This document shows positions 1 to 19,067 of a stretch of 20,837 bases of DNA, in pieces (position 1 is the stretch's first letter; each line of letters begins with the position of its first letter). A model generated the notes under the pieces. It did not search any database. It saw nothing but the letters and a program-made list of their open reading frames with translations, and was not told the origin of the DNA. The DNA comes from a virus. Position numbers and translations under genes: made by a program. The stretch lies in the IMG/VR virus record IMGVR_UViG_3300031730_000197, positions 1 through 20,837 of that record; one strand, written 5' to 3'.

Positions 1-591
1 GACATCAAGTTCTCGGAGCCCGCGGACTTGGGCGGTTCGTACTCCGAGTTCCTGCGCACCCAGTTCCGGGCGGTGGCAGCAGCGCTGGGCATCACCTACG
101 AGCAGCTCACCGGCGACCTGACGGGGGTGAACTACTCGTCCATCCGTGCGGGGCTGCTGGAGTTCCGGCGCCGCTGCGAGATGGTCCAGCACGGCGTGCT
201 GGTGCACCAGCTGTGCCGCCCAGTGTGGTCGGCATGGATGAAGCAGGCGGTGCTGGCGGGCGCGCTGGAGGCCCCGGGGTTTGCAAGAGGTGGAGCGGCC
301 CGGCGGCGCCAGTACCTGCAGGCCAAGTGGATCCCGCAGGGCTGGCAGTGGGTCGATCCCGAGAAGGAGTTCAAGGCCATGCTGCTGGCCATCCGGGCCG
401 GGCTGATGAGCCGCTCGGAGGCCATCTCGGCCAATGGCTACGACGCCGAGGACGTGGACCGCGAGATCGCTGCCGACAACGCCCGGGCTGACGCGCTCGG
501 CCTGATCTTCGACTCCGACCCGCGCCATACATCCAAGGACGGCGGCCGGGCCGAACCGAGTGCTCCTGCGGCTGGGGAGGCGGCGCCATGA
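1..591 (+). CDS. Phage portal protein, lambda gpB family (3' part only)
   Basis: This is the C-terminal part (196 codons) of a portal protein, the dodecameric ring at the unique capsid vertex through which DNA is packaged and ejected. The reading frame is open from base 1, so the true start lies upstream of the window; lambda gpB is about 530 residues, so well over half is missing. The visible part carries stretches I recognise from lambda gpB: KFSEPADLGGSYSEFLR, GITYEQLTGDLTGVNYSSI, a following FRRR, the LCRPVW block, and WIPQGWQWVDP with AIRAGLMSRSEAIS. The last 20 or so residues are Ala/Pro/Gly-rich and poorly conserved. The stop overlaps the next start as ATGA (588-591), a translational coupling typical of portal-protease pairs. 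Family assignment is firm from these motifs; only the 5' boundary is unknown. Confidence 0.95.
   Translation, partial: DIKFSEPADLGGSYSEFLRTQFRAVAAALGITYEQLTGDLTGVNYSSIRAGLLEFRRRCEMVQHGVLVHQLCRPVWSAWMKQAVLAGALEAPGFARGGAARRRQYLQAKWIPQGWQWVDPEKEFKAMLLAIRAGLMSRSEAISANGYDAEDVDREIAADNARADALGLIFDSDPRHTSKDGGRAEPSAPAAGEAAP
574..580 (+). promoter_or_regulatory. Strong ribosome binding site for the prohead protease
   Basis: GGGGAGG ends 7 bases before the ATG at 588 and lies inside the last codons of the portal gene. It fixes the protease start at 588 and suggests that the overlapping ATGA junction is an independently initiated and coupled start. Confidence 0.7.
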
Positions 592-1838
592 ACCTGTTGC
601 CCAACTTGGCGGCGCGGGTGTTCGGCGCGCCGCTGCTGATCCATCGTCCCAAGCTCGACGTGATCCTGGCCGTGCTGGGGCCCCGCGTCGGTGTCATCGA
701 CCTGGCCGCGCCGGCAGGCCACTTCCCTGTTCCGCGCACCCCGGCGAGCACGGAGCCTTCGATCGCCGTCCTGCCCATCCACGGCACGCTGGTCCGCCGT
801 ACCGTTGGCCTGGAAGCCGAATCGGGACTGCTGAGCTACACCGCCATCGCGGCCCAGCTGGATGCGGCGTTGGCCGATTCGAACGTCGCCGGCATCTTGC
901 TGGACGTCGACTCTCCGGGTGGCGAGTCGGGCGGCGTGTTCGACCTGGCCGACCGCATCCGTTCAGCCGCTGCCGTGAAACCGGTCTGGGCGGTCGCCAA
1001 CGATGCTGCCTTCTCAGCCGCCTATGCGCTGGCATCGGCCGCCACCCGGGTGTTCGTCTCCCGCACCGGAGGCGTCGGATCCATCGGTGTCATTGCGATG
1101 CACGTCGACCAGTCCGTCAAGGACGCCCAGGACGGCCTGCGCTACACGGCGGTGTTCGCCGGGGACCGCAAGAACGATCTCAACCCGCACCAGCCGATCT
1201 CCGACCAAGCCCATGCCTTCCTGCAGGGCGAGGTGAACCGGGTCTACAGCCTCTTCACCGAGACCGTGGCGCGGCACCGCGGTCTCAGCACCGATGCCGT
1301 CCGGGCCACCGAAGCCGGCTTGTTCTTCGGCCAGGACGCCATTGCCGCGGGGCTGGCCGATGCGCTCGGCGGCTTGGACGACGCACTGGCGCAGCTCACC
1401 CACACGGTTTCTTCACCCCCGGCGCTGCAGGCCAGCCGCCCGGGTTCCTTGCCCGACCTGGCCGCTCCGGCCCTTCCTATTGACGCCTCACCCATGAACG
1501 ACTTGCCCAACCCTCCTCCCACCTCCGGCGCCCTGCCGGCCCAGCCAGCGGCCCCCACCAGCCTGACGGTGGCCGACGCCATTGAGATCGCCCAGACCTG
1601 CAGCCTGGCCGGCCGCACCGACCTGATCGCCGGGTTCCTCGAAACCGGTGTGTCACCGGCCCAGGCGCGCAGCCAACTGCTGGTGGCGCAAGCCACGCAG
1701 TCGCCCGAGATCGTCAGCCGCATCGGCCCGAACGCCGCGGCTTCGGCTGCCGCGTCGGCCGCCAACCCCGCCTCCCCGGACAACCCGCTGATCCAGGCCG
1801 TCAAGCGCCGCATGGCCGCCCATCCCACCCAACCCTGA
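588..1838 (+). CDS. S49-family prohead protease with C-terminal scaffold domain (lambda gpC/Nu3-like)
   Basis: This 416-residue protein is a SppA/ClpP-fold serine peptidase that matures the prohead. The protease part spans about residues 55-290. It has the DVDSPGGESGG strand-turn motif (106-116), the AFSAAYALAS nucleophile block and GSIGVIAMH (164-172). The catalytic Ser-Lys dyad is predicted as Ser143 and Lys195 (in AGDRKND). Their 52-residue separation equals the spacing I recall for lambda gpC (Ser166 and Lys218). Residues about 300-416 are Pro/Ala-rich, then helical, and end in a basic segment (AVKRRMAAHP), as expected of a scaffold that binds capsid subunits. An in-frame Met303 could give a separate scaffold product. 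The gene follows the portal with a 4-base overlap and is followed by the decoration and capsid genes, the lambda order. Confidence 0.93.
   Translation: MNLLPNLAARVFGAPLLIHRPKLDVILAVLGPRVGVIDLAAPAGHFPVPRTPASTEPSIAVLPIHGTLVRRTVGLEAESGLLSYTAIAAQLDAALADSNVAGILLDVDSPGGESGGVFDLADRIRSAAAVKPVWAVANDAAFSAAYALASAATRVFVSRTGGVGSIGVIAMHVDQSVKDAQDGLRYTAVFAGDRKNDLNPHQPISDQAHAFLQGEVNRVYSLFTETVARHRGLSTDAVRATEAGLFFGQDAIAAGLADALGGLDDALAQLTHTVSSPPALQASRPGSLPDLAAPALPIDASPMNDLPNPPPTSGALPAQPAAPTSLTVADAIEIAQTCSLAGRTDLIAGFLETGVSPAQARSQLLVAQATQSPEIVSRIGPNAAASAAASAANPASPDNPLIQAVKRRMAAHPTQP
1494..1838 (+). CDS. Possible nested scaffold protein (Nu3-like internal start)
   Basis: An in-frame ATG at 1494 (Met303 of the protease) would give a 114-residue protein equal to the protease's C-terminal domain. 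In lambda the scaffold Nu3 is made from an internal start in gene C, so this layout has a known precedent. The sequence begins MNDLPNPPPTSG, which reads like a fresh N-terminus after a linker, and ends in a basic helix. Against it, no clear Shine-Dalgarno sequence precedes the ATG, which sits in the context CTCACCCATG. Scaffold could instead be released by cleavage or act only as part of the fusion. I infer the nested product; I cannot show it. Confidence 0.35.
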   Translation: MNDLPNPPPTSGALPAQPAAPTSLTVADAIEIAQTCSLAGRTDLIAGFLETGVSPAQARSQLLVAQATQSPEIVSRIGPNAAASAAASAANPASPDNPLIQAVKRRMAAHPTQP

Positions 1839-4064: not shown

Positions 4065-4838
4065 ATGAGCAACTACGCAAGTTTTCAAGGGCGGGTGTAC
4101 CTCGGCAAGCGCGACGCCGCGGGCCTGCCCATCGAAGTGAGATCGCCCGGCAACGTGGCCGAGCTGAAGCTGTCCCTCAAGACCGAGGTGCTGGAGCACT
4201 ACGAGAGCCAGAGCGGCCAGCGCACGCTGGACCACCGCATGGTCAAGCAGAAGTCAGCAACCGTGAGCCTCACCCTGGAGGAGTTCACCAAAGAGAACCT
4301 GGCGCTCGCGCTGTACGGCAACCACGTGATGGGCCAGGCCGGCACGGTGAGCGGTGAGCCGGTGGGTGGCGCGGCACCCGTGGTGGGCGACCGCTACTTC
4401 CTGGCCCACCCCAAGGTGTCCGGCCTCGTGCTCAAGGACAGCAGCGCCACACCCGCGACTCTGGCGTCTGGTGTGGACTACACCGCTGACCCGGACTTCG
4501 GGGCGCTGCAGTTCCTGCGATTGGACGATGGCGGTTCACCTGTAGTGCCGTACACCTTGCCGTTCAAGGCCAGCTACTCGTTCGGCGCGGCCACCTGGAT
4601 CGGCATCTTCACGCAGCCGCTGCCCGAGCGCTACCTGCGCCTGGAAGGCATCAACACCGCGCAAGGCAATGCCAAGGTGTTGGTCGAGCTGTACCGCGTG
4701 GCCTTCGATCCGCTGAAGGAACTGGCCCTCATCTCGGACGACCTCAACAAGTTCGAGATGGAGGGCTCGCTGCTGGCGGATCCCACCAAGCCATTCGATG
4801 CCGCACTGGGCCAGTTTGGCCGCGTCGTCCAAATCTGA
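4065..4838 (+). CDS. Major tail (tube) protein, gpV-like
   Basis: This 257-residue protein is close in length to lambda gpV (246) and occupies the gpV position, before the tail assembly chaperone. Tube proteins stack as hexameric rings around the tape measure. Visible features are an N-terminal SFQGRVYLGKRDAAG strand pair, GNVAELKLSLKTEVLEHYE, the SATVSLTLEEFTKENLALAL segment typical of tail-tube beta sandwiches, and a C-terminal half with KVLVELYRVAFDPLKEL and a final EMEGSLLADPTKP, a pattern found in phage tail proteins with the 'G.L..D' strand. No C-terminal Ig domain is seen. The start follows an A-rich leader without a Shine-Dalgarno site. Similar tail proteins from other phages share this overall pattern, so the assignment is good. 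Confidence 0.85.
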   Translation: MSNYASFQGRVYLGKRDAAGLPIEVRSPGNVAELKLSLKTEVLEHYESQSGQRTLDHRMVKQKSATVSLTLEEFTKENLALALYGNHVMGQAGTVSGEPVGGAAPVVGDRYFLAHPKVSGLVLKDSSATPATLASGVDYTADPDFGALQFLRLDDGGSPVVPYTLPFKASYSFGAATWIGIFTQPLPERYLRLEGINTAQGNAKVLVELYRVAFDPLKELALISDDLNKFEMEGSLLADPTKPFDAALGQFGRVVQI

Positions 4839-5248: not shown

Positions 5249-5445
5249 TCGGACGCGGCCACCGTCTGCCCGACGTTCTCAGCTACACGCTGGCGCAGGT
5301 GCGCGGCTTCTTGGCTGCCGCCGAGCGGGTGGACGCCGCGCACGACGCTCGATTGCTCTCGCTGATCGCCATCGGCACACGGGGCGATGCCCGCCACCTC
5401 GACCAATCCATCGACAAGCTGATGGACCGCGCCACCTCACGATGA
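4853..5445 (+). CDS. Tail assembly chaperone, frameshifted long form (gpGT-like)
   Basis: A -1 shift at 5149-5155 would join codons 4853-5155 to the frame that continues from base 5155 to the stop at 5443-5445, giving about 197 residues (101 zero-frame plus 96 from the -1 frame). The -1 frame has no start of its own near its beginning, has no stop across this stretch, and encodes a protein-like sequence: WFDAVQCLIGRGHRLPDVL, YTLAQVRGFLAAAE and LDQSIDKLMDR. This fills what would otherwise be a gap between 5248 and 5442. Its stop overlaps the next start (ATGA, 5442-5445). In lambda and many siphophages the rare gpGT form binds the tube protein and the G/GT ratio matters for assembly. The frame evidence is directly visible; the frameshift itself is inferred. 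Confidence 0.85.
5149..5155 (+). promoter_or_regulatory. -1 programmed ribosomal frameshift site T_TTT_TTT
   Basis: Seven consecutive T residues are read in the zero frame as the last base of GAT followed by TTT TTT, the X_XXY_YYZ arrangement for tandem -1 slippage. Both Phe codons re-pair perfectly after the shift. A T7 run is striking in a sequence this GC-rich. A 5-bp hairpin plus a G-T pair (5183-5188 with 5195-5200, loop TTCGTG) lies 27 bases downstream, further than the usual 5-9 base spacer, so no convincing stimulator was identified. Confidence 0.85.
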
Positions 5446-6098
5446 AGATCACCGTTCGCATCGACAGCGCCGCCGCCCAGGCGCAACTTCGCCGCTGGGG
5501 TGGGGAGTTCCAGGCCAAAGCCGCCAAGGCGGTCCAGCGGGCCATGACGGCCGAGGCGGCAGCCATCAAGCAGGAGGTGCGCAGCCACGTCGCGGGGGAA
5601 TTGGCGGTGGTGAAGAAGTCCTTCCTCAAGGGCTTCTCGGCCAAGGTCCTGGTCGATGACCGGAGCGCATCGTTCCAGCGCCTGCCGGCCCTCTACGTGG
5701 GCTCAAGGATTCCGTGGTCGGGCATGCACGAGACCGGCGGCCGCATCGCCGGCCGGATGCTGATTCCGCTGCACGGCCGGATCGGTCGCAAGCGCTTCAA
5801 GGCCCAGGTGGCCGAGCTGATGCGCGGTGGCAACGCCTACTTCATCAAGAACGCCAAGGGGCACATCGTGCTGATGGCAGAGAACATCAAGGAACACGAT
5901 CGGGTGCTGTCCGGCTTCAAGCGAGGCCACCGCAAGGCCGCGGGTGTCAAGCGGCTCAAGCGCGGTGCGGACGTGCCCATCGCTGTGCTGGTGCCGAGGG
6001 TGGTGCTCAGGAAGCGCCTGGACATCGGGCGGCTGGTGACAGGCCGCATCCCTCGCTTGGCGGCGGCCATCGAACAACAGATCCGCTCCCTTCCCTGA
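5442..6098 (+). CDS. Minor tail protein (gpZ-like or DUF6441-like)
   Basis: This 218-residue protein starts at the ATG that overlaps the stop of the frameshifted chaperone. The frame is open further upstream to an ATG at 5241, but that stretch (PDRTRPPSARR...) is the out-of-frame shadow of the chaperone extension, so 5442 is preferred. It is very basic (many Lys/Arg), with a helical N-terminal part (EFQAKAAKAVQRAMTAEA, SHVAGELAVVKKSFLKGF) and a C-terminal part carrying GGNAYFIKNAKGHIVLMAE and PIAVLVPRVVLRKRLDIGR. The layout is reminiscent of minor tail proteins such as lambda gpZ and of DUF6441 proteins found next to tape measures. Position between chaperone and tape measure supports a role in tail assembly or completion. 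The exact family is uncertain. Confidence 0.6.
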   Translation: MKITVRIDSAAAQAQLRRWGGEFQAKAAKAVQRAMTAEAAAIKQEVRSHVAGELAVVKKSFLKGFSAKVLVDDRSASFQRLPALYVGSRIPWSGMHETGGRIAGRMLIPLHGRIGRKRFKAQVAELMRGGNAYFIKNAKGHIVLMAENIKEHDRVLSGFKRGHRKAAGVKRLKRGADVPIAVLVPRVVLRKRLDIGRLVTGRIPRLAAAIEQQIRSLP

Positions 6099-10181: not shown

Positions 10182-10601
10182 ATGCAACTCAAAAACCTCG
10201 CCGATGGGGTAGCCCTGGTGCTGCCCGACGATTTGGTGTGGAGCGACGAACACGCCTGGAGCCCAGCAGTCGCCTCCGTGTCCTACCTGCTGACTGGTGC
10301 GCTGCTGGTGCAGTCGGCCACACGCCAGGCGGGCCGCCCCATCACCTTGGTGGGCGCGCCCGACATGGCCTGGGTCACGCGCGCGGTGGTCGACACCTTG
10401 TACGGCTGGGCCGCGATCCCCTTGTCGGCTACGGCAGGCCGCTTCGAACTGGCCCTGGCCGATGGTCTCGGAGGCAGCCCCTTGTTCACGGTGGCTTTCC
10501 GCCACGCCGACACCGCCATCGAAGCCGAACCCGTCACCGGCTTCCCTGCCCGTGCCGCCACCGACTTCTACCGCCTGACGCTGCGGTTGATGGAACTCTG
10601 A
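10182..10601 (+). CDS. Tail-tip protein of unknown family (gpM position)
   Basis: This 139-residue protein follows the tape measure by 30 bases, the place where siphophages encode a distal tail or gpM-type protein. I do not recognise a family with certainty. Visible are a beta-rich N-terminus (LADGVALVLPDDLVWSDE), a middle segment with RQAGRPITLVGAPDMAWVTR, and a C-terminal half ending in FYRLTLRLMEL. The hydrophobic LPDDLVW..EHAWSPV-like pattern suggests a compact beta protein with no signal peptide or membrane segment. Upstream sequence (10152-10181) is pyrimidine-rich and has no Shine-Dalgarno; the start is in CCCATG context. Coding is supported by sustained frame, length and tight spacing to both neighbours (16 bases to the next start). 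A role joining tape measure or tube end to the tip is inference. Confidence 0.85.
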   Translation: MQLKNLADGVALVLPDDLVWSDEHAWSPAVASVSYLLTGALLVQSATRQAGRPITLVGAPDMAWVTRAVVDTLYGWAAIPLSATAGRFELALADGLGGSPLFTVAFRHADTAIEAEPVTGFPARAATDFYRLTLRLMEL

Positions 10602-10617
10602 ACTCAGGAACCCACCC

Positions 10618-13600
10618 ATGCCCATCCAGACCGGTGACGTCAAGCTCGTCGCCTCGCAAGTCATGAACGACGTGGAGGAAGGCGGCGGCGCCCCCACCGC
10701 CACCGTCATCCAGGACGGCGGCAGCAACACCCTCTTCAACGACATCTCCGAGCTCGACCGCGCCGCAGGCCGGGTCAACCTGCGCAAGGTCTTTGCCAGC
10801 ATCCAGACCAACACCACCGACACCTACCTGGGCGGCAACGTCGTGGTGTCCGACCCGCCGAACGACCCGCGCGTGGCCATCACCATCTTCTCCACCGACG
10901 AGGTGTTCGATCGCCGCACCCAGGCGCGTGACCGCATCGAGGCCTACCTGAACAAGGGGTCGCTGTGGAGCGGCTACTTGCTGGAGAACCATATCGCCGG
11001 CCAGCGCTCGATCCAGTTGTTCCAGCGCGATGGCGCGGAACTGCCGACGATCGGCAAGACCTTGTACCTGGTCGCCAACGAGGGTTTGTCCAACGAGGTG
11101 GCGCAGTACGTGCGGATCACCCGCGTCGCGTCGCAAGCGCGCACCTACAGCGTCAACACCGGTAACAGCATCGTCGACTACAGCGCGCTGGTGGTCACCT
11201 GTGACCTGTCTGACGCCCTGCGCTACGACTTCCCTGGCTCGGCGCCGAATCGGCTCTTCACGATGGAGACCGGCAAGACCCGCACGCGCGACACGGTGGT
11301 GGCCGATGCGGCCAAGTATTGCGGCGTGGTCCAGACCACCCAGCCGCTGGCGGTCGGCGACGTGGCGGCCGAGGTGGCCAGCGTGTTCACGCAGCTGGTG
11401 CCCTCGGCCCAGACCGAGACCCCGCTGCTGGACCTCACGGCCGGTGCCAGCGCGGAGACGATGGTCGACTCGGCCCAGACTGGCGCGCCGGGCACGGCGA
11501 CCCTCATCTCGGGCAGTGTGTTCAACGCCGCCACCACGCTGTCGCTGGGCAACCCGATCCAGCCCGGCTCGCTCACGATCACTGCCGGCAGCGCCACGCT
11601 GGTGGACCGCGGCGGCGATCTGCTGGACGGCGCCACCGTGGTCGGCACCGTCAGCTACGGGCGCGGTGAGGTCGCCTTTGCCAGCAGTGCGCCGACCTAC
11701 GCCGGTACCAAGACCGTCGGTTTCCGGCCGGGGGCCGCACCGATCCGCGTGGCCGACACGGCCGGCATCCGCGTCGACATCGAGAGTCGCTCCTACAACT
11801 ACCTGCTGACCATCGTGCCCGCTCCGGCCGCCGGCACGCTGCGGGTCAGCTACAGGGCCCAGGGCAAGTGGTACGACCTGCGCGACAACGGGGCCGGCGT
11901 GCTCAAGGGCAGCCGGCCCGAGATCGGCGTGGGCACCGTCAGCGTTAGCAGTGGCAGTGTCGCCGTGACGCTGGGCGCGCTGCCGGACGTGGGCAGCGAG
12001 ATCGTCTATGCCTGGGGCAGCCGGGCCAACTACTTCAACCGCTCGGCCAGCACTGTGGCGCCGCCGCGGGTGGCGCTGCAGCTTTCGCACGCCGGTGTGA
12101 CTCCGGGGAGTGTTGCGATCACCTGGAACGATGGCACTGCGCGCAGCGCCGCGGACAACGGGCGGGGCCAGATCACCGGCAGCGCCACCGGCACGATCAA
12201 CTACCAGACCGGGCTGATCGACCTGGTGCCGGCACAGCTTCCTGCCGGTGGGCAGACCTACAGCGTGGCCTACACCTGGGGCCCGCCCACCGCGCAGGAA
12301 TTCCATGCCCCGCTGCGCAACGGTGACGGCACGGTCAGTGTGGCGCTGGACTTCGGCGGCCTGATCTCCGGCAGCGTGGAACTCGAGTGGAACTTGCTGG
12401 TGGCCCAGTACGACTACATCTCGACCACGCCGGCCGAGATGCAGGTGATCCGCGCGACCGATCCGATCAAGATCGTCCGTGACGACGGCAGCGGCACGCT
12501 GCGGGACCCCCAGGGTGCGAGCGTCGGGACGGTCAACTACGCGTCCGGCGTCGTGCGTTTCCTGCCCGACACCACGGTGCGCATCCCGGTTGGCCGCTAC
12601 ACGGTCGCCCAGATCGGTACCACCCGGGTGGGCAGCGGCAGCGACGTCAAGTTCGTCCCGGTCTACCGCAACCTGTTCTCGCGCTGGGAGTACGTGACCG
12701 CCGGGGCCTCGATGCCGCTGGACGAGAGCGCGCTGGTCAAGGTGCGGTACCGGGCCACGGGCACGTCCAACGCGGTCACGGAGACCTTCACCGCGGGTGC
12801 GATCAACCTGGACCTGACGCCCAGCTTCGCCGAGACCATCGTGCCCGGCAGCATTCATTTCACCCTCGGCGGCAAGAGCTACTTCGACCGCCTGGGTAGC
12901 CTGTACCACGACCTCAATCCGATCACCGGCGCTGCCACGCTGGCCGGGGCCATCAACTACACCACCGGCGAGGCGGCACTCAGCGCCTGGGTGCCTGCTG
13001 CCTCCAACGCAGTCACGCTGCGCTCCCTGCTGACCACCTTGGACGGCACCCCGGTGGACGAGGCCACCTTCCGCGTACCGGCCGCCCCGGTGCGCCCCTC
13101 CAGCTTGCAGATCCTGGCCACCCGGCTCACCGGCGGCACGATCAACGTCAGCGCCGACAACAGCGGCCGGATCTCCGGGACCGACGTGCTGGGCAGCATC
13201 GACTACGAGACCGGCGTCGTGCGCGTGCGCTTCGGGGCCTGGGTGGCCGCCGCCGGCAACGAGGGCCAGATGTGGTACGACCCCAATGCGGTTGTGACCC
13301 TCGACGGCCTGGCGCGAATCTTCAAGCCCGTGCCGGTGTTCGCCGACACCATCAAGTACAACGCGGTGGCGTACTCCTACCTGCCGCTGGACGCCGACAT
13401 CATCGGACTGGACCCGGTGCGGCTGCCGCAGGACGGCCGCGTGCCGATCTTCCGCGCCGGGGACTTCGCGGTCATCGGCCATACGGGCACTGTCGGGCCG
13501 ATCACGGTGAGCAACGGCCAGGTGGTTTCCTGCGGCCGCGTGCGCCTGTCCCGGGTGCGCGTGCTGGGCACCAACGGCGCGGTCATCACCGCGGGCTACG

Positions 13601-14244
13601 CGGCTGACTTGGAAGCCGGCACGGTGACCTTCACCAACGTCACGGGCTTCGCCCAGCCGGTCACGATCGAACACCGCATCGAGGACATGGCCCAGGTGTC
13701 GGACGTGCAGATCTCGGGCCGGCTGACCTTCACGCGCCAGATCACGCATGCCTACCCCACCGGCTCCCACGTCTCCTCGGCGCTGATCGCAGGCGACCTG
13801 CGCGCCTACGTGTCCAAGCTGTTCGACCAGGCCACCTGGAGCGGCGTGTTCGCGGACGCACTCTCCGGCAGCGCCGCGACCGCCACCTACAACGACGTGC
13901 TGGCGCCCATCGCCGTGACCAACGCCGGGGCGATCACCGAGCGCTGGGCGATCCAGTTCACCAACACCACCGCCTTCAACGTCATCGGCGAGCACGTGGG
14001 CGTGATCGCCACCGGCAGCACTGCCACCGACACCGCGCCGCTGAACCCCGCCACCGGCAAGCCCTACTTCACGCTGCCCGCCATCGGCTGGGGCGCCGGC
14101 TGGGCCGCAGGCAACGTGCTGCGCTTCAACACCACCGGCGCGCTGTTCCCGGTCTGGGTGGTCCGCACCATCCAGCAAGGGCCTGAGACGGTGACCAACG
14201 ATTCCTTCACCCTGCTGATCCGCGGCGACGTGGACCGGCCCTGA
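10618..14244 (+). CDS. Large tail-tip protein with repeated beta modules
   Basis: This 1208-residue protein has no family I can name with confidence. The N-terminal 230 residues are mixed alpha/beta (IQDGGSNTLFNDISELDR, NLRKVFASIQTNTTDTYLGG, FDRRTQARDRIEAYLNKGS). From about residue 320 to 870 there are six degenerate modules with the pattern 'GSv.i.w ... D.G.G.l ... GtinY.tG.v.l', with GT[VI] starts near residues 343, 440, 525, 637, 777 and 859. The C-terminal 330 residues contain VQISGRLTFTRQITHAYPTG and end with VTNDSFTLLIRGDVDRP. It is probably a tail-tip or central-fibre component, given that it sits between the tape measure and the hub-like gene. AGGA lies 9 bases before the start. No Cys-rich, enzymatic or collagen-like motif was seen. 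Confidence 0.85.
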   Translation: MPIQTGDVKLVASQVMNDVEEGGGAPTATVIQDGGSNTLFNDISELDRAAGRVNLRKVFASIQTNTTDTYLGGNVVVSDPPNDPRVAITIFSTDEVFDRRTQARDRIEAYLNKGSLWSGYLLENHIAGQRSIQLFQRDGAELPTIGKTLYLVANEGLSNEVAQYVRITRVASQARTYSVNTGNSIVDYSALVVTCDLSDALRYDFPGSAPNRLFTMETGKTRTRDTVVADAAKYCGVVQTTQPLAVGDVAAEVASVFTQLVPSAQTETPLLDLTAGASAETMVDSAQTGAPGTATLISGSVFNAATTLSLGNPIQPGSLTITAGSATLVDRGGDLLDGATVVGTVSYGRGEVAFASSAPTYAGTKTVGFRPGAAPIRVADTAGIRVDIESRSYNYLLTIVPAPAAGTLRVSYRAQGKWYDLRDNGAGVLKGSRPEIGVGTVSVSSGSVAVTLGALPDVGSEIVYAWGSRANYFNRSASTVAPPRVALQLSHAGVTPGSVAITWNDGTARSAADNGRGQITGSATGTINYQTGLIDLVPAQLPAGGQTYSVAYTWGPPTAQEFHAPLRNGDGTVSVALDFGGLISGSVELEWNLLVAQYDYISTTPAEMQVIRATDPIKIVRDDGSGTLRDPQGASVGTVNYASGVVRFLPDTTVRIPVGRYTVAQIGTTRVGSGSDVKFVPVYRNLFSRWEYVTAGASMPLDESALVKVRYRATGTSNAVTETFTAGAINLDLTPSFAETIVPGSIHFTLGGKSYFDRLGSLYHDLNPITGAATLAGAINYTTGEAALSAWVPAASNAVTLRSLLTTLDGTPVDEATFRVPAAPVRPSSLQILATRLTGGTINVSADNSGRISGTDVLGSIDYETGVVRVRFGAWVAAAGNEGQMWYDPNAVVTLDGLARIFKPVPVFADTIKYNAVAYSYLPLDADIIGLDPVRLPQDGRVPIFRAGDFAVIGHTGTVGPITVSNGQVVSCGRVRLSRVRVLGTNGAVITAGYAADLEAGTVTFTNVTGFAQPVTIEHRIEDMAQVSDVQISGRLTFTRQITHAYPTGSHVSSALIAGDLRAYVSKLFDQATWSGVFADALSGSAATATYNDVLAPIAVTNAGAITERWAIQFTNTTAFNVIGEHVGVIATGSTATDTAPLNPATGKPYFTLPAIGWGAGWAAGNVLRFNTTGALFPVWVVRTIQQGPETVTNDSFTLLIRGDVDRP
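11605..13230 (+). repeat. Six degenerate beta modules in the tail-tip protein
   Basis: Within residues about 330-870, segments such as GTVSYGRGEVAF, GTVSVSSGSVAV, GTINYQTGLIDL, GTVNYASGVVRF, GAINYTTGEAAL and GSIDYETGVVRV recur at spacings of about 82-140 residues. Each is preceded by a D/N-G turn (DNGAG, DNGRG, DDGSG, DNSG). The repeats are at protein level; I do not see long nucleotide identity between them, so they are old duplications. Confidence 0.65.
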
Positions 14245-14265: not shown

Positions 14266-15534
14266 ATGAGCAACAAAGTCAAATGGATGTTCAACGGCAT
14301 GACCGGCGCGCCGGTGCTGACCAACAACTGGGGCAGCATGGTGGCGTTGCTGGACGCCTGCCTGGTCAACGGCTTCAACCTGCAGACGGTCGCGACCATC
14401 ACCCGCACCGGCTCCACAGCCACCGCGACCCTCAGTTCCGGCCACGGCTTCGTGGTCGACCAGGTCGTACGCGTCGCCGGCTGCGACCAGCCTGAGTACA
14501 ACGGCGATGTCACGCTCACTGCCGTCACATCCGCCACGGTGAGTTTCAGCGTCGCGGGCGCGCCGGTTACGCCCGCGAGCACGGTCACGACGATCACGGT
14601 CAAGGTGGCACCGCTGGGTTTCGAGACCGTCTTCACCGACACGAACAAGCGCGTCTACCGCAGCCCCAACGTGCTGAGCAACCGCCACTTCCTGCGCGTG
14701 GATGACAACGTGCCGGCCGGCTACACCAGCACCTGGGCCAAGTTCGCCCGGGTCACGATCGCCGAGGGCATGGCGGACATCGACACCTTCGTCGGCGGCC
14801 GCGCGCCCTACAGCCCGCCGCAGCCCACCGCCAACGAGATCCCCAGCGGCAGCGGCACGTCGATGTTCTCAGGTTGGTTCAAGTGGTACTACGCCCGCAA
14901 CAGCAGCAGTGAATCCAACGGCGACAACGGCGCCTGGGCGCGCAGTTGGGTGCTGGTCGGCGACGACCGGGGCTTCTTCCTGTCGAACTCGTCCGGCTTC
15001 GGCGGCGACAAGCGCATCCTGCACGCCTTCACCGACTTCGACAGCTACAAGCCGGGCGACAACTATGCCTCCTACCTGATCGCTTCCGAGCGCTACCGGA
15101 CCGTCAGTGACGCCAATACCAGCTACGCCCACCAGGACGCCGCGTCGGCCTATTCGCTGGACACCACCGGCAAGACTTGCATCCGCAACTACACCCAGAT
15201 CGGCGACAACGCGCGGCTGGGCATGCTGTCGCTGAACGACGGCAACACGCAGAGCCTCTCCAACCGGTCCGCGTTCTTCGTGTTCCCCAACGGACCCGAC
15301 TACAGCCTGGTGCTGCACCCGATCTACCTGCGCGAGTCCACCGGGCACCTGCGCGGCATCCTGCCGGGCCAGTTCTGGATCCACCAGAACCAGCCGTACG
15401 GGCACCTGTCCGTCATCGACAACGTCATCGGCTACGAGGGCCGCAAGTTCCTGATCGTGACGCTGAGTTCGTTTTCGGACGAAACCAACAGTTGCGGCTT
15501 TGCCTACGACATCACCGGGCCGTGGAGGCCGTAA
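14266..15534 (+). CDS. Tail-tip or fibre protein with small beta domain
   Basis: This 422-residue protein begins VKWMFNGMTGAPVLTNNWGS, and has a compact beta domain at about residues 45-110 (SGHGFVVDQVVRVAG, QPEYNGDVTLTAVTSATVSF) that resembles small beta domains often found in phage tail proteins. The remainder (120-422) is aromatic and Ser/Asn/Gly-rich (MFSGWFKWYYARNSSSESN, DDRGFFLSNSSGFGGDKR), with several Trp/Tyr clusters, which is common in receptor-binding or structural tip proteins. I do not recognise a family for that part. It lies 21 bases after the 1208-residue gene and 3 bases before the next gene. Upstream, only AAGA-like purines precede CCCATG. The protein-coding call is firm; the role is inferred from context. 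Confidence 0.85.
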   Translation: MSNKVKWMFNGMTGAPVLTNNWGSMVALLDACLVNGFNLQTVATITRTGSTATATLSSGHGFVVDQVVRVAGCDQPEYNGDVTLTAVTSATVSFSVAGAPVTPASTVTTITVKVAPLGFETVFTDTNKRVYRSPNVLSNRHFLRVDDNVPAGYTSTWAKFARVTIAEGMADIDTFVGGRAPYSPPQPTANEIPSGSGTSMFSGWFKWYYARNSSSESNGDNGAWARSWVLVGDDRGFFLSNSSGFGGDKRILHAFTDFDSYKPGDNYASYLIASERYRTVSDANTSYAHQDAASAYSLDTTGKTCIRNYTQIGDNARLGMLSLNDGNTQSLSNRSAFFVFPNGPDYSLVLHPIYLRESTGHLRGILPGQFWIHQNQPYGHLSVIDNVIGYEGRKFLIVTLSSFSDETNSCGFAYDITGPWRP

Positions 15535-16936: not shown

Positions 16937-18844
16937 ATGGCGGACATTGACCTTGTTTTTGCGCAGACGCCGGGCGTCGCGGACCTTGTCTTCGGCGGGG
17001 CGGACACCGGACCGGTCCTGCCGGTCGATGCGACGCTGGTCGCCACGCTGCCGGCACTGAGCTTCGCGGCGCGGGCGATTCCAAACGCGGAGTTCGCGCT
17101 GGTGGCAATGCTGCCTGCGTTGGCGATGAGCGCGGAGGGGCGGTACCAGTCCTATGCCGCTCGGCCGACGGTGGGGCGGAGCGTGGCGAGCTGGCAGCGT
17201 GCGACACAGGGCAGGACTGGGGTGCAGGATCGCAGCGACGCCACCGGGCGCGACAAGACGTCGGGCGCCGTCGCGTGGGCCATCGCGTCCACGCACCTGG
17301 TGGGTGTCGAGCATCGACTCCTTGGCGCGCTGATTCGGGCCGAGGTGGCGAGTCGGGTGGTGCATCAGGATGCTGAACCGCTTTCGCCCGGTGAACGCAC
17401 CAGCCGCAGCAGTGATTCGCTTCGGCTGCGTACCAGCAGTGCGTCGAGCTACGAGGATGCGACGCGTGCCGGGTGGATGCGCAGTGCTGTTCGTCATCAG
17501 GACACGCTGCGCGACCGGCGACGAGCATCCACCTCGGGCTACGCGCGGGCGCAACGTCACGCGGCCGCAAGGAAGCACGAGGGGATCCAGAGCGCACACG
17601 TTTCGCGCGTCTCGTGGATGGTCTCGCATCAGGGTGCGATCGTGCCGCGGCCCGGGCCCCGCCTTGTGGACCCGGGCACACCGCCGGTGGTGGTGCCTTG
17701 CTACACGCCTTCGGTGGCGCTGCTGTTTACGGAAGCGGTGGCGGTTGATGGCCACCTGGTGTTTGTCTGTGAAAACCACGTCGAACCGCCCTCGGAACAC
17801 GAGCCGGTCGTCGTGCCTGTTCGGAGGGTGTACTGGGTGATCAACAACGTGAGCCTGCGCCGGGTGCTCGATGGGGCCGAGGTGCCGGTTTTCAGCCTGT
17901 CGCTGTCGTTGGATGCCGCATCGTGGGCCTGGGGCTTCGAGGCGGTACTGCCGGCGACCGGCCTGGCTCAGGTCGAGCCCCACAGCAACGGCCCGGTCGA
18001 ACTGGCGGCCGAGGTGAACGGCACGACCTTCCGCGTGCTGGCCGAGAACATCAGCCGGGAGCGCAGTTTCGGCGCGGCGAGCATCCGGGTGTGGGGGCGT
18101 GGCCGCAATGCGGTGTTGGCGGCGCCCTATGCGCCGGTGATGAACTTCTCGAACCAGGAGCAGCGTACCGCCAGGCAGCTGATGGACGACGTGCTGACCC
18201 ACAACGGCACCGCCACCGGCGTGCCGCTGGGCTGGGCCGTGGATTGGGGCCTGACCGACTGGAGCGTGCCAGCGGGCGTCTTCAACCACCAGGGCACTTG
18301 GATCGACGCTCTGCTGGCCGTCGTCGGTGCGGCGGGGGCCGATCTCATTCCGCACCCGTCGGCGCAGAGCTTGAAGGTCCGCCACCGGTATCCGGTGGCG
18401 CCGTGGGAGTGGGGAGCAGTGACACCGGACTTCGTGCTGCCTGCCGATGTGGTGTCGCGCGAGTCGCTGCGTTGGCAGGACAAGCCCGCCTACAACCGCG
18501 TGTTCGTCTCGGGTCAGGAGATTGGCGTGCTGGGCCAGGTGACGCGCGCAGGCACGGCCGGCGACGTGCTGGCGCCCATGGTGGTCGATGCCTTGATCAC
18601 CGAAGCCGCCGCGGCGCGCCAGCGGGGCCTGGCGGTGCTGGCCGACACCGGCCGGCAGATCGAGGTGACGCTGCGCCTGCCTGTGCTGGCCGAGACCGGG
18701 ATCATCGAACCCGGCGCGTTTGTGCGGTATCAGGACGACGGCCAGGATGGCCATGTCAGCCGGTTGGGGCTGGTACGCAGCACCCGTGTGGAAGCGGGCC
18801 TGCCCGAGGTCTGGCAAACGCTGGGGGTGCAGACCTATGCATAA
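16937..18844 (+). CDS. Hub-like tail-tip protein with Arg/Ser-rich N-terminal spacer
   Basis: This 635-residue protein has three parts. Residues 30-66 hold two copies of a short 'LVATLPALSFAA' unit. Residues about 68-230 are Arg/Ser/Ala/Gln-rich and low in hydrophobics, with ASWQRATQGRTGV, RSAVRHQDTLRDRRR and ARAQRHAAARKHEG, likely a helical or flexible spacer. Residues about 295-635 look like a tail hub (gp27/gpD-like): ALIRVW-type strands, QEQRTARQLMDD, PAGVFNHQGTWIDALLAVVG, RWQDKPAYNRVFVSG and ETGIIEPGAFVRYQDDG. A very similar C-terminal pattern occurs in other phages' tail proteins. It overlaps the OB-fold-like gene by 8 bases; hub and OB-spike genes often neighbour each other. The hub call is a fold impression, not a domain hit. 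Confidence 0.75.
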   Translation: MADIDLVFAQTPGVADLVFGGADTGPVLPVDATLVATLPALSFAARAIPNAEFALVAMLPALAMSAEGRYQSYAARPTVGRSVASWQRATQGRTGVQDRSDATGRDKTSGAVAWAIASTHLVGVEHRLLGALIRAEVASRVVHQDAEPLSPGERTSRSSDSLRLRTSSASSYEDATRAGWMRSAVRHQDTLRDRRRASTSGYARAQRHAAARKHEGIQSAHVSRVSWMVSHQGAIVPRPGPRLVDPGTPPVVVPCYTPSVALLFTEAVAVDGHLVFVCENHVEPPSEHEPVVVPVRRVYWVINNVSLRRVLDGAEVPVFSLSLSLDAASWAWGFEAVLPATGLAQVEPHSNGPVELAAEVNGTTFRVLAENISRERSFGAASIRVWGRGRNAVLAAPYAPVMNFSNQEQRTARQLMDDVLTHNGTATGVPLGWAVDWGLTDWSVPAGVFNHQGTWIDALLAVVGAAGADLIPHPSAQSLKVRHRYPVAPWEWGAVTPDFVLPADVVSRESLRWQDKPAYNRVFVSGQEIGVLGQVTRAGTAGDVLAPMVVDALITEAAAARQRGLAVLADTGRQIEVTLRLPVLAETGIIEPGAFVRYQDDGQDGHVSRLGLVRSTRVEAGLPEVWQTLGVQTYA

Positions 18845-19067
18845 CCTCTACCAGCAGTTCCGCGCGCTGCTGCCAGATCCGCCGTTGCAGGTCGGCACCG
18901 TGATCGACGTCGGGGCCGGTGGGATCAACGTGCGGTTGCCCGGTGGCGGCCTCGTGAAGGCCCGGGGTGATCCCGGCAGCACTGCAATCGGCCAGCAGGT
19001 GTTCGTTCGCGATGGGGTGATCGAAGGCCCGGCCCCCAACCTGACGCTGGAGGTGATCGAGATCTGA
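18837..19067 (+). CDS. OB-fold-like tail-tip (spike base) protein
   Basis: This 76-residue protein starts at ATG 18837, inside the stop region of the hub-like gene (8-base overlap). Earlier in-frame starts would read through its coding sequence in the wrong frame, so 18837 is preferred. The sequence has a helical start (MHNLYQQFRALLP) and then five short strands: QVGTVIDVGAGGINVRLP, LVKARGD, GQQVFVRDGVIEGP and LTLEVIEI. The G.V..v..g...V.LP beginning is typical of OB-fold domains at the base of gp5/VgrG-type spikes. There is no needle, lysozyme or PAAR region, so only the base is encoded here. It is the last gene before the terminator. Confidence 0.7.
   Translation: MHNLYQQFRALLPDPPLQVGTVIDVGAGGINVRLPGGGLVKARGDPGSTAIGQQVFVRDGVIEGPAPNLTLEVIEI

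Follow-up and report, generated by a model that had tools for sequence, protein, structure and literature searches.

What kind of tail-tip protein is encoded downstream of the tape measure gene of this virus, and what might be the role of the repeat that it carries? The window, i.e. the whole stretch of DNA analysed here (20,837 bases), makes up the entire virus record, and the gene occupies positions 10618..14241 on the plus strand, where an open reading frame (ORF) with a conserved start codes for 1208 aa. The product is a large, previously uncharacterised tail-tip protein of siphophages, in which six old copies of one small beta-sandwich domain are placed between two conserved ends, and it probably forms an arm or a collar at the site of contact between phage and host. 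A 1214-aa frame is open on the opposite strand (10534-14178, minus); it was discounted as being most likely a shadow of the high-GC coding sequence.

The initial annotation could not place the protein in a named family. Such a family does exist, without an assigned function: residues 1-1207 match positions 1-1200 of the 1200-position phrog_6128 profile, that is, over the full length, with a score of 1390 bits. Short relatives constitute phrog_9261, and the module structure of neither group is described in the papers that we found. Members of phrog_6128 are carried by hundreds of phages and prophages of Proteobacteria. Relatives were retrieved from at least 570 IMG/VR stretches and from 250 stretches in GTDB contigs, the hosts belonging mainly to Burkholderiales, Xanthomonadales, Aeromonas and other Proteobacteria, and isolated phages that carry a relative infect Stenotrophomonas, Pseudomonas, Acidovorax, Marinobacter, Psychrobacter, Shewanella, Vibrio and Pseudoalteromonas. 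Outside the family, single-sequence searches with the protein against PDB, Pfam and NCBIfam returned nothing useful, the whole-protein profile produced only a chance match in the PDB, and tblastn seeded with a single natural module recovered family members only.

The protein was initially proposed to contain about six repeats of one module, recognised by a glycine-containing motif. The motif as originally written matches the protein only once; its loose form, G[TSA][IV][NDS][YV]xxGx[VIA], has six matches, located at residues 343, 439, 525, 637, 777 and 859. In 2000 shuffles of the sequence the loose motif was found 0.006 times on average and once at most, a figure that is somewhat circular because the motif was taken from the same protein. 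The repeat was therefore tested independently by hhalign comparison of 71-residue windows around each motif, cut from an alignment that comprised 80 diverse relatives; this profile-profile comparison was done in place of a self-dotplot. All 15 pairs of modules matched each other with probabilities of 87–98% (mean 95%), whereas modules compared with control windows had a median of 0.65%; one control window overlapping module 2 did match the modules, as expected. The six-module repeat is thus real. Direct repeats in the DNA of the gene are short and diverged only, indicating that the duplication is old and ruling out a recent repeat expansion. Moreover, modules at the same position are 33–53% identical between phages, whereas those at different positions share 20–30%, so that the duplication is older than the phrog_6128 family itself.

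A hidden Markov model (HMM) of the module delineated six domains, all on the plus strand, which together span residues 308-880, slightly more than the range of 330-870 given originally. These are module 1 (residues 308-374, 11539..11739; i-E 1.3e-16), module 2 (399-469, 11812..12024; 5.9e-20), module 3 (493-558, 12094..12291; 1e-20), module 4 (581-656, 12358..12585; 7.9e-15), which has an insertion ahead of its DDG turn, module 5 (738-811, 12829..13050; 1.3e-13) and module 6 (824-880, 13087..13257; 2.9e-17). The motif copies are separated by 96, 86, 112, 140 and 82 residues, in agreement with the reported spacing of 82-140. Long beta-hairpins lie between modules 4 and 5 (residues 652-728, 12571..12801, plus strand; strands 652-671 and 678-698). 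They form the least conserved region of the protein (mean information 1.62 bits), followed by module 4 (1.88 bits).

Six modules equal the sixfold symmetry of a tail tube, and the two-module relatives described below would also reach six if they assembled as trimers, so one chain might be imagined to encircle the tube or the hub as a pseudo-sixfold ring. The uneven spacing, the long hairpin between modules 4 and 5 and the Ig-like, not tube-like, folds predicted for the modules all speak against such a ring, which we consider highly improbable. Of the two architectures suggested in the initial annotation, a beta rod or a ring, the latter is unsupported; the former is plausible, though the ends of the protein suggest anchoring on both sides.

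In the AlphaFold2 model of residues 1-1200 (mean pLDDT 86.3, pTM 0.64) the protein is almost all beta. In all six copies the motif strand begins 2-3 residues ahead of the glycine of the motif, and the following strand starts exactly 8 residues past that glycine. In the model the motifs thus do not fall in unrelated folds, the outcome that, according to the initial annotation, would have refuted the repeat. The general order of elements within a module is a PGS[LV] strand, a D-G turn strand, a short strand, the GT[IV]xY strand, the GxVxL strand and a closing strand. This shared strand order, together with the profile homology, describes homologous beta-sandwich domains in tandem, as in Ig-like or FnIII-like arrays, and each module is accordingly modelled as a small Ig-like beta sandwich. 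The sandwich type comes from VIA-align of the whole model, in which such regions gave weak matches to many unrelated Ig-type beta-sandwich folds, and assignment to any one superfamily is accordingly tentative. Foldseek searches with the whole model returned low-probability matches to unrelated beta proteins only. A likeness of modules 1-2 to the T4 gp6 and P1 wedge proteins (Z 4.5-5.7) and a match to the phrog_219 wedge family (E 0.04-0.16) did not rise above background, and we make no claim from them.

A match to the module outside the family lies in the major capsid protein gp23 of phage P1, where the stretch 241-294 matches the module profile with an E-value of 1.3e-4 (hhalign, 76%). It is present there as a single copy of ∼50 aligned residues in a myophage capsid protein, as opposed to six copies in a tail-tip protein. 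A beta-rich surface I-domain has been described in gp23 (PMC12810830), and the matching stretch would fall within it. The module type may thus not be confined to tails, and the likeness of P1 gene 23 (L322 5068-6774, minus strand) hints at modules common to capsid and tail proteins. A PDB entry named 'Gp23' was traced to this same capsid protein and hence lends no support to a role in the baseplate.

Module number is steady within the family. When 293 full-length ORFs, many of them close relatives of one another, were searched with the module HMM, six modules were detected in 278, five in 14 and four in one; the remaining copies in these 15 ORFs are probably degenerate, and no change in module number was seen among the full-length members. 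The repeat-number variation that the initial annotation proposed to look for was seen in the short, marine relatives of 703-824 aa from Shewanella, Vibrio and Pseudoalteromonas phages. These retain the first ∼120 and the last ∼490 residues, including the regions of modules 5 and 6, and lack modules 1-4. In the Marinobacter phage AS1 a break between modules 2 and 3 divides the gene, giving two ORFs, and two ORFs are likewise found in the Acidovorax phage ACPWH.

Ig-like domains of other virion proteins have been proposed to be passive decorations or spacers that make weak, nonspecific contacts with glycans. Such a role would agree with the resemblance of the modules to many unrelated beta-sandwich folds, with the similar stretch in the P1 capsid protein and with the existence of short relatives that live without modules 1-4. 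We nevertheless regard it as unlikely for the protein studied here, since full-length members have a fixed number of six modules and each module is closer to its counterpart at the same position in other phages than to modules at other positions (33–53% against 20–30% identity), which suggests a defined role for each position.

The ends of the protein are its most conserved parts, and both are retained in the short relatives. Mean information is highest in residues 1-108 (10618..10941, plus strand; 2.93 bits), a region that is possibly tube-like, even though VIA-align matched it to no solved fold; in a Dit protein, docking on the tail tube is the task of a tube-like domain made of a beta-sandwich and a helix. 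The C-terminal beta region, residues 881-1208 (13258..14241, plus strand), follows with 2.81-2.86 bits; neither a tube domain nor a Dit fold was matched in the C-terminal third by VIA-align of the whole model. Residues 109-229 (10942..11304, plus strand) match OB/beta-barrel domains in VIA-align. This barrel superimposes on residues 244-326 of the distal tail protein of phage JBD30 (8rk3_D; Z 8.5, 2.2 Å over 83 residues), on T5 pb9 (4jmq_A; Z 7.0) and on a tube protein (Z 8.6). An OB barrel is expected of a Dit protein, yet it is not diagnostic of one, since tailspikes score equally well or higher (7w1c, Z 9.7; 4ru4, Z 9.6). The Dit proteins JBD30 gp49, in which the OB domain was assigned to residues 252-320 (PMC11445458), and T5 pb9 thus share with the six-module protein an OB barrel (Z 7.0-8.5) and a gene located near that for the tape measure. 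Both are much smaller (554 residues resolved in gp49 and ∼200 in pb9) and do not carry a six-module array.

The two ends are predicted to fold together. The pLDDT of residues 230-270 is 79-91 in the full-length model and falls to 40-76 when residues 1-276 are folded alone, a drop that could partly be a truncation artefact, and VIA-align of the whole model found single beta folds built jointly from residues 236..1055 and 269..918. Both observations point to a common fold of the N- and C-terminal parts, with the module array as an insertion between them, and this in turn suggests an array anchored on both sides rather than a free rod. A tentative extension is that the array forms a doubly anchored arch, with both feet on one base to which the two halves of a Dit-like protein, N-terminal and C-terminal, would contribute. 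Phages would then vary the length of the arch through the number of modules (six in most, two in the marine relatives) while keeping the anchor.

Neighbouring genes were scored in ∼320 related loci, many of them cut short. The conserved gene order is tube protein, tape measure, a 139-aa gene, the six-module gene and then the hub. In the window, all of the following genes being on the plus strand, the major tail (tube) protein (4065-4835) matches NCBIfam NF052337 (tail_tube_6XGR; E 4e-61), the tube type of the flagellotropic phages YSD1 and Chi, and is present in 282 of the loci. A DUF6441 protein gene directly before the tape measure gene (5436-6095) is found in only 114. The 139-aa protein (phrog_4408; 10182..10598), encoded between the tape measure and the six-module protein, is present in 304, and the probable baseplate hub (635 aa, 16937..18841; phrog_6079 tail protein) in 290. 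Directly 3' of the hub gene, a conserved 76-aa protein (phrog_5076; 18837-19064) is encoded in 263 of the loci; it had no significant match in the PDB, and its sequence looks like that of a small beta barrel, perhaps of the OB type. The six-module gene has the same position in phages S1, Lodos, AS1, ACPWH and others, and the block is carried by Mu-like phages, by integrase-bearing phages and by one PolB-bearing phage.

When the hub profile was compared with PDB sequences, the highest-ranking phage protein was Mu gp44 (1wru), a weak match (E 0.19 only) to a protein of 379 aa as compared with 635 aa here; a hub homologue in Psychrobacter phage Y8A is annotated as 'Mu-like prophage tail protein gpP'. 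Residues ∼75-235 of the hub form a basic stretch with WQxA-like repeats, which in one relative (L161) are spaced by ∼14 or 28 residues. The hub gene of Vibrio phage 2.096 contains features annotated as 'CRISPR spacers', probably a mis-call on such in-gene repeats. The initial annotation had also noted that lambda L-, I- and J-like genes are missing, and this stands: lambda-type J (PF13550), L (PF05100), I (PF06805) and M (PF05939) gave no match at E 10 in the window, the controls being positive in E. coli and the tail region being covered even if the record is perhaps a fragment.

The position of the gene just after that for the tape measure is also where JBD30 has gp47 and gp48, the proteins of its arms, and this raises the question of whether the protein is a lateral tail fibre or adhesion arm, an Ig-like rod that binds a pilus, a flagellum or a polysaccharide. 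Some records of relatives carry the name 'tail fiber', and tandem beta modules with tailspike-like OB barrels would fit adhesion. However, sequence and module number are steady across hosts of several orders (278 of the 293 full-length ORFs have six modules), and the ends are more conserved than the modules, unlike in a typical host-specific binder. The genes that do vary among relatives lie downstream, between the six-module gene and that for the hub, and include some with lectin, SPRY and FG-GAP annotations; because of this variation, sugar or receptor specificity more likely sits in their products. One of them in the window, a 422-aa protein (14266-15531, plus strand), has a region (residues 41-114) that matches tail-fibre and virion-structural PHROGs (E ∼1e-3) and, judged by its sequence, is a possible candidate for the receptor-binding protein. 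An adhesion arm is for these reasons a rather doubtful reading of the six-module protein.

Evidence that the family belongs to the virion comes from the Shewanella phage MuM16-1, whose particles were shown by mass spectrometry to contain the short homologue p45 as well as p46 and the hub-like p48; its authors hypothesised that the conserved block takes part in surface receptor recognition (PMC8541194). p45 (824 aa) resembles the six-module protein in its N- and C-terminal parts, and modules are weakly detectable in it only around the positions of modules 5 and 6.

The OB barrel, as in the Dit proteins of JBD30 and T5, the conserved gene block from tube to hub and the presence of p45 in virions lead us to favour, at about even odds, a Dit-like tail-tip scaffold whose six Ig-like modules make up an arm or a collar. 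The N-terminal region with its OB barrel and the C-terminal third would fold jointly into a base, which would dock between the tail tube and the Mu gp44-like hub, as Dit does. The six modules, inserted between the two halves, would project from this base, and the resulting arm or collar may stiffen the tip and present it to the cell surface.

A widespread, unnamed tail-tip family (at least 570 IMG/VR and 250 GTDB-contig stretches) thus gains a map of its domains and a role that can be tested. The results suggest a tip that combines a Mu-like hub with a YSD1-type tube instead of lambda-type proteins. Such a tip would be common to phages of the Mu-like, integrase-bearing and PolB-bearing kinds, among them phages of Pseudomonas aeruginosa, which are amenable to laboratory work.
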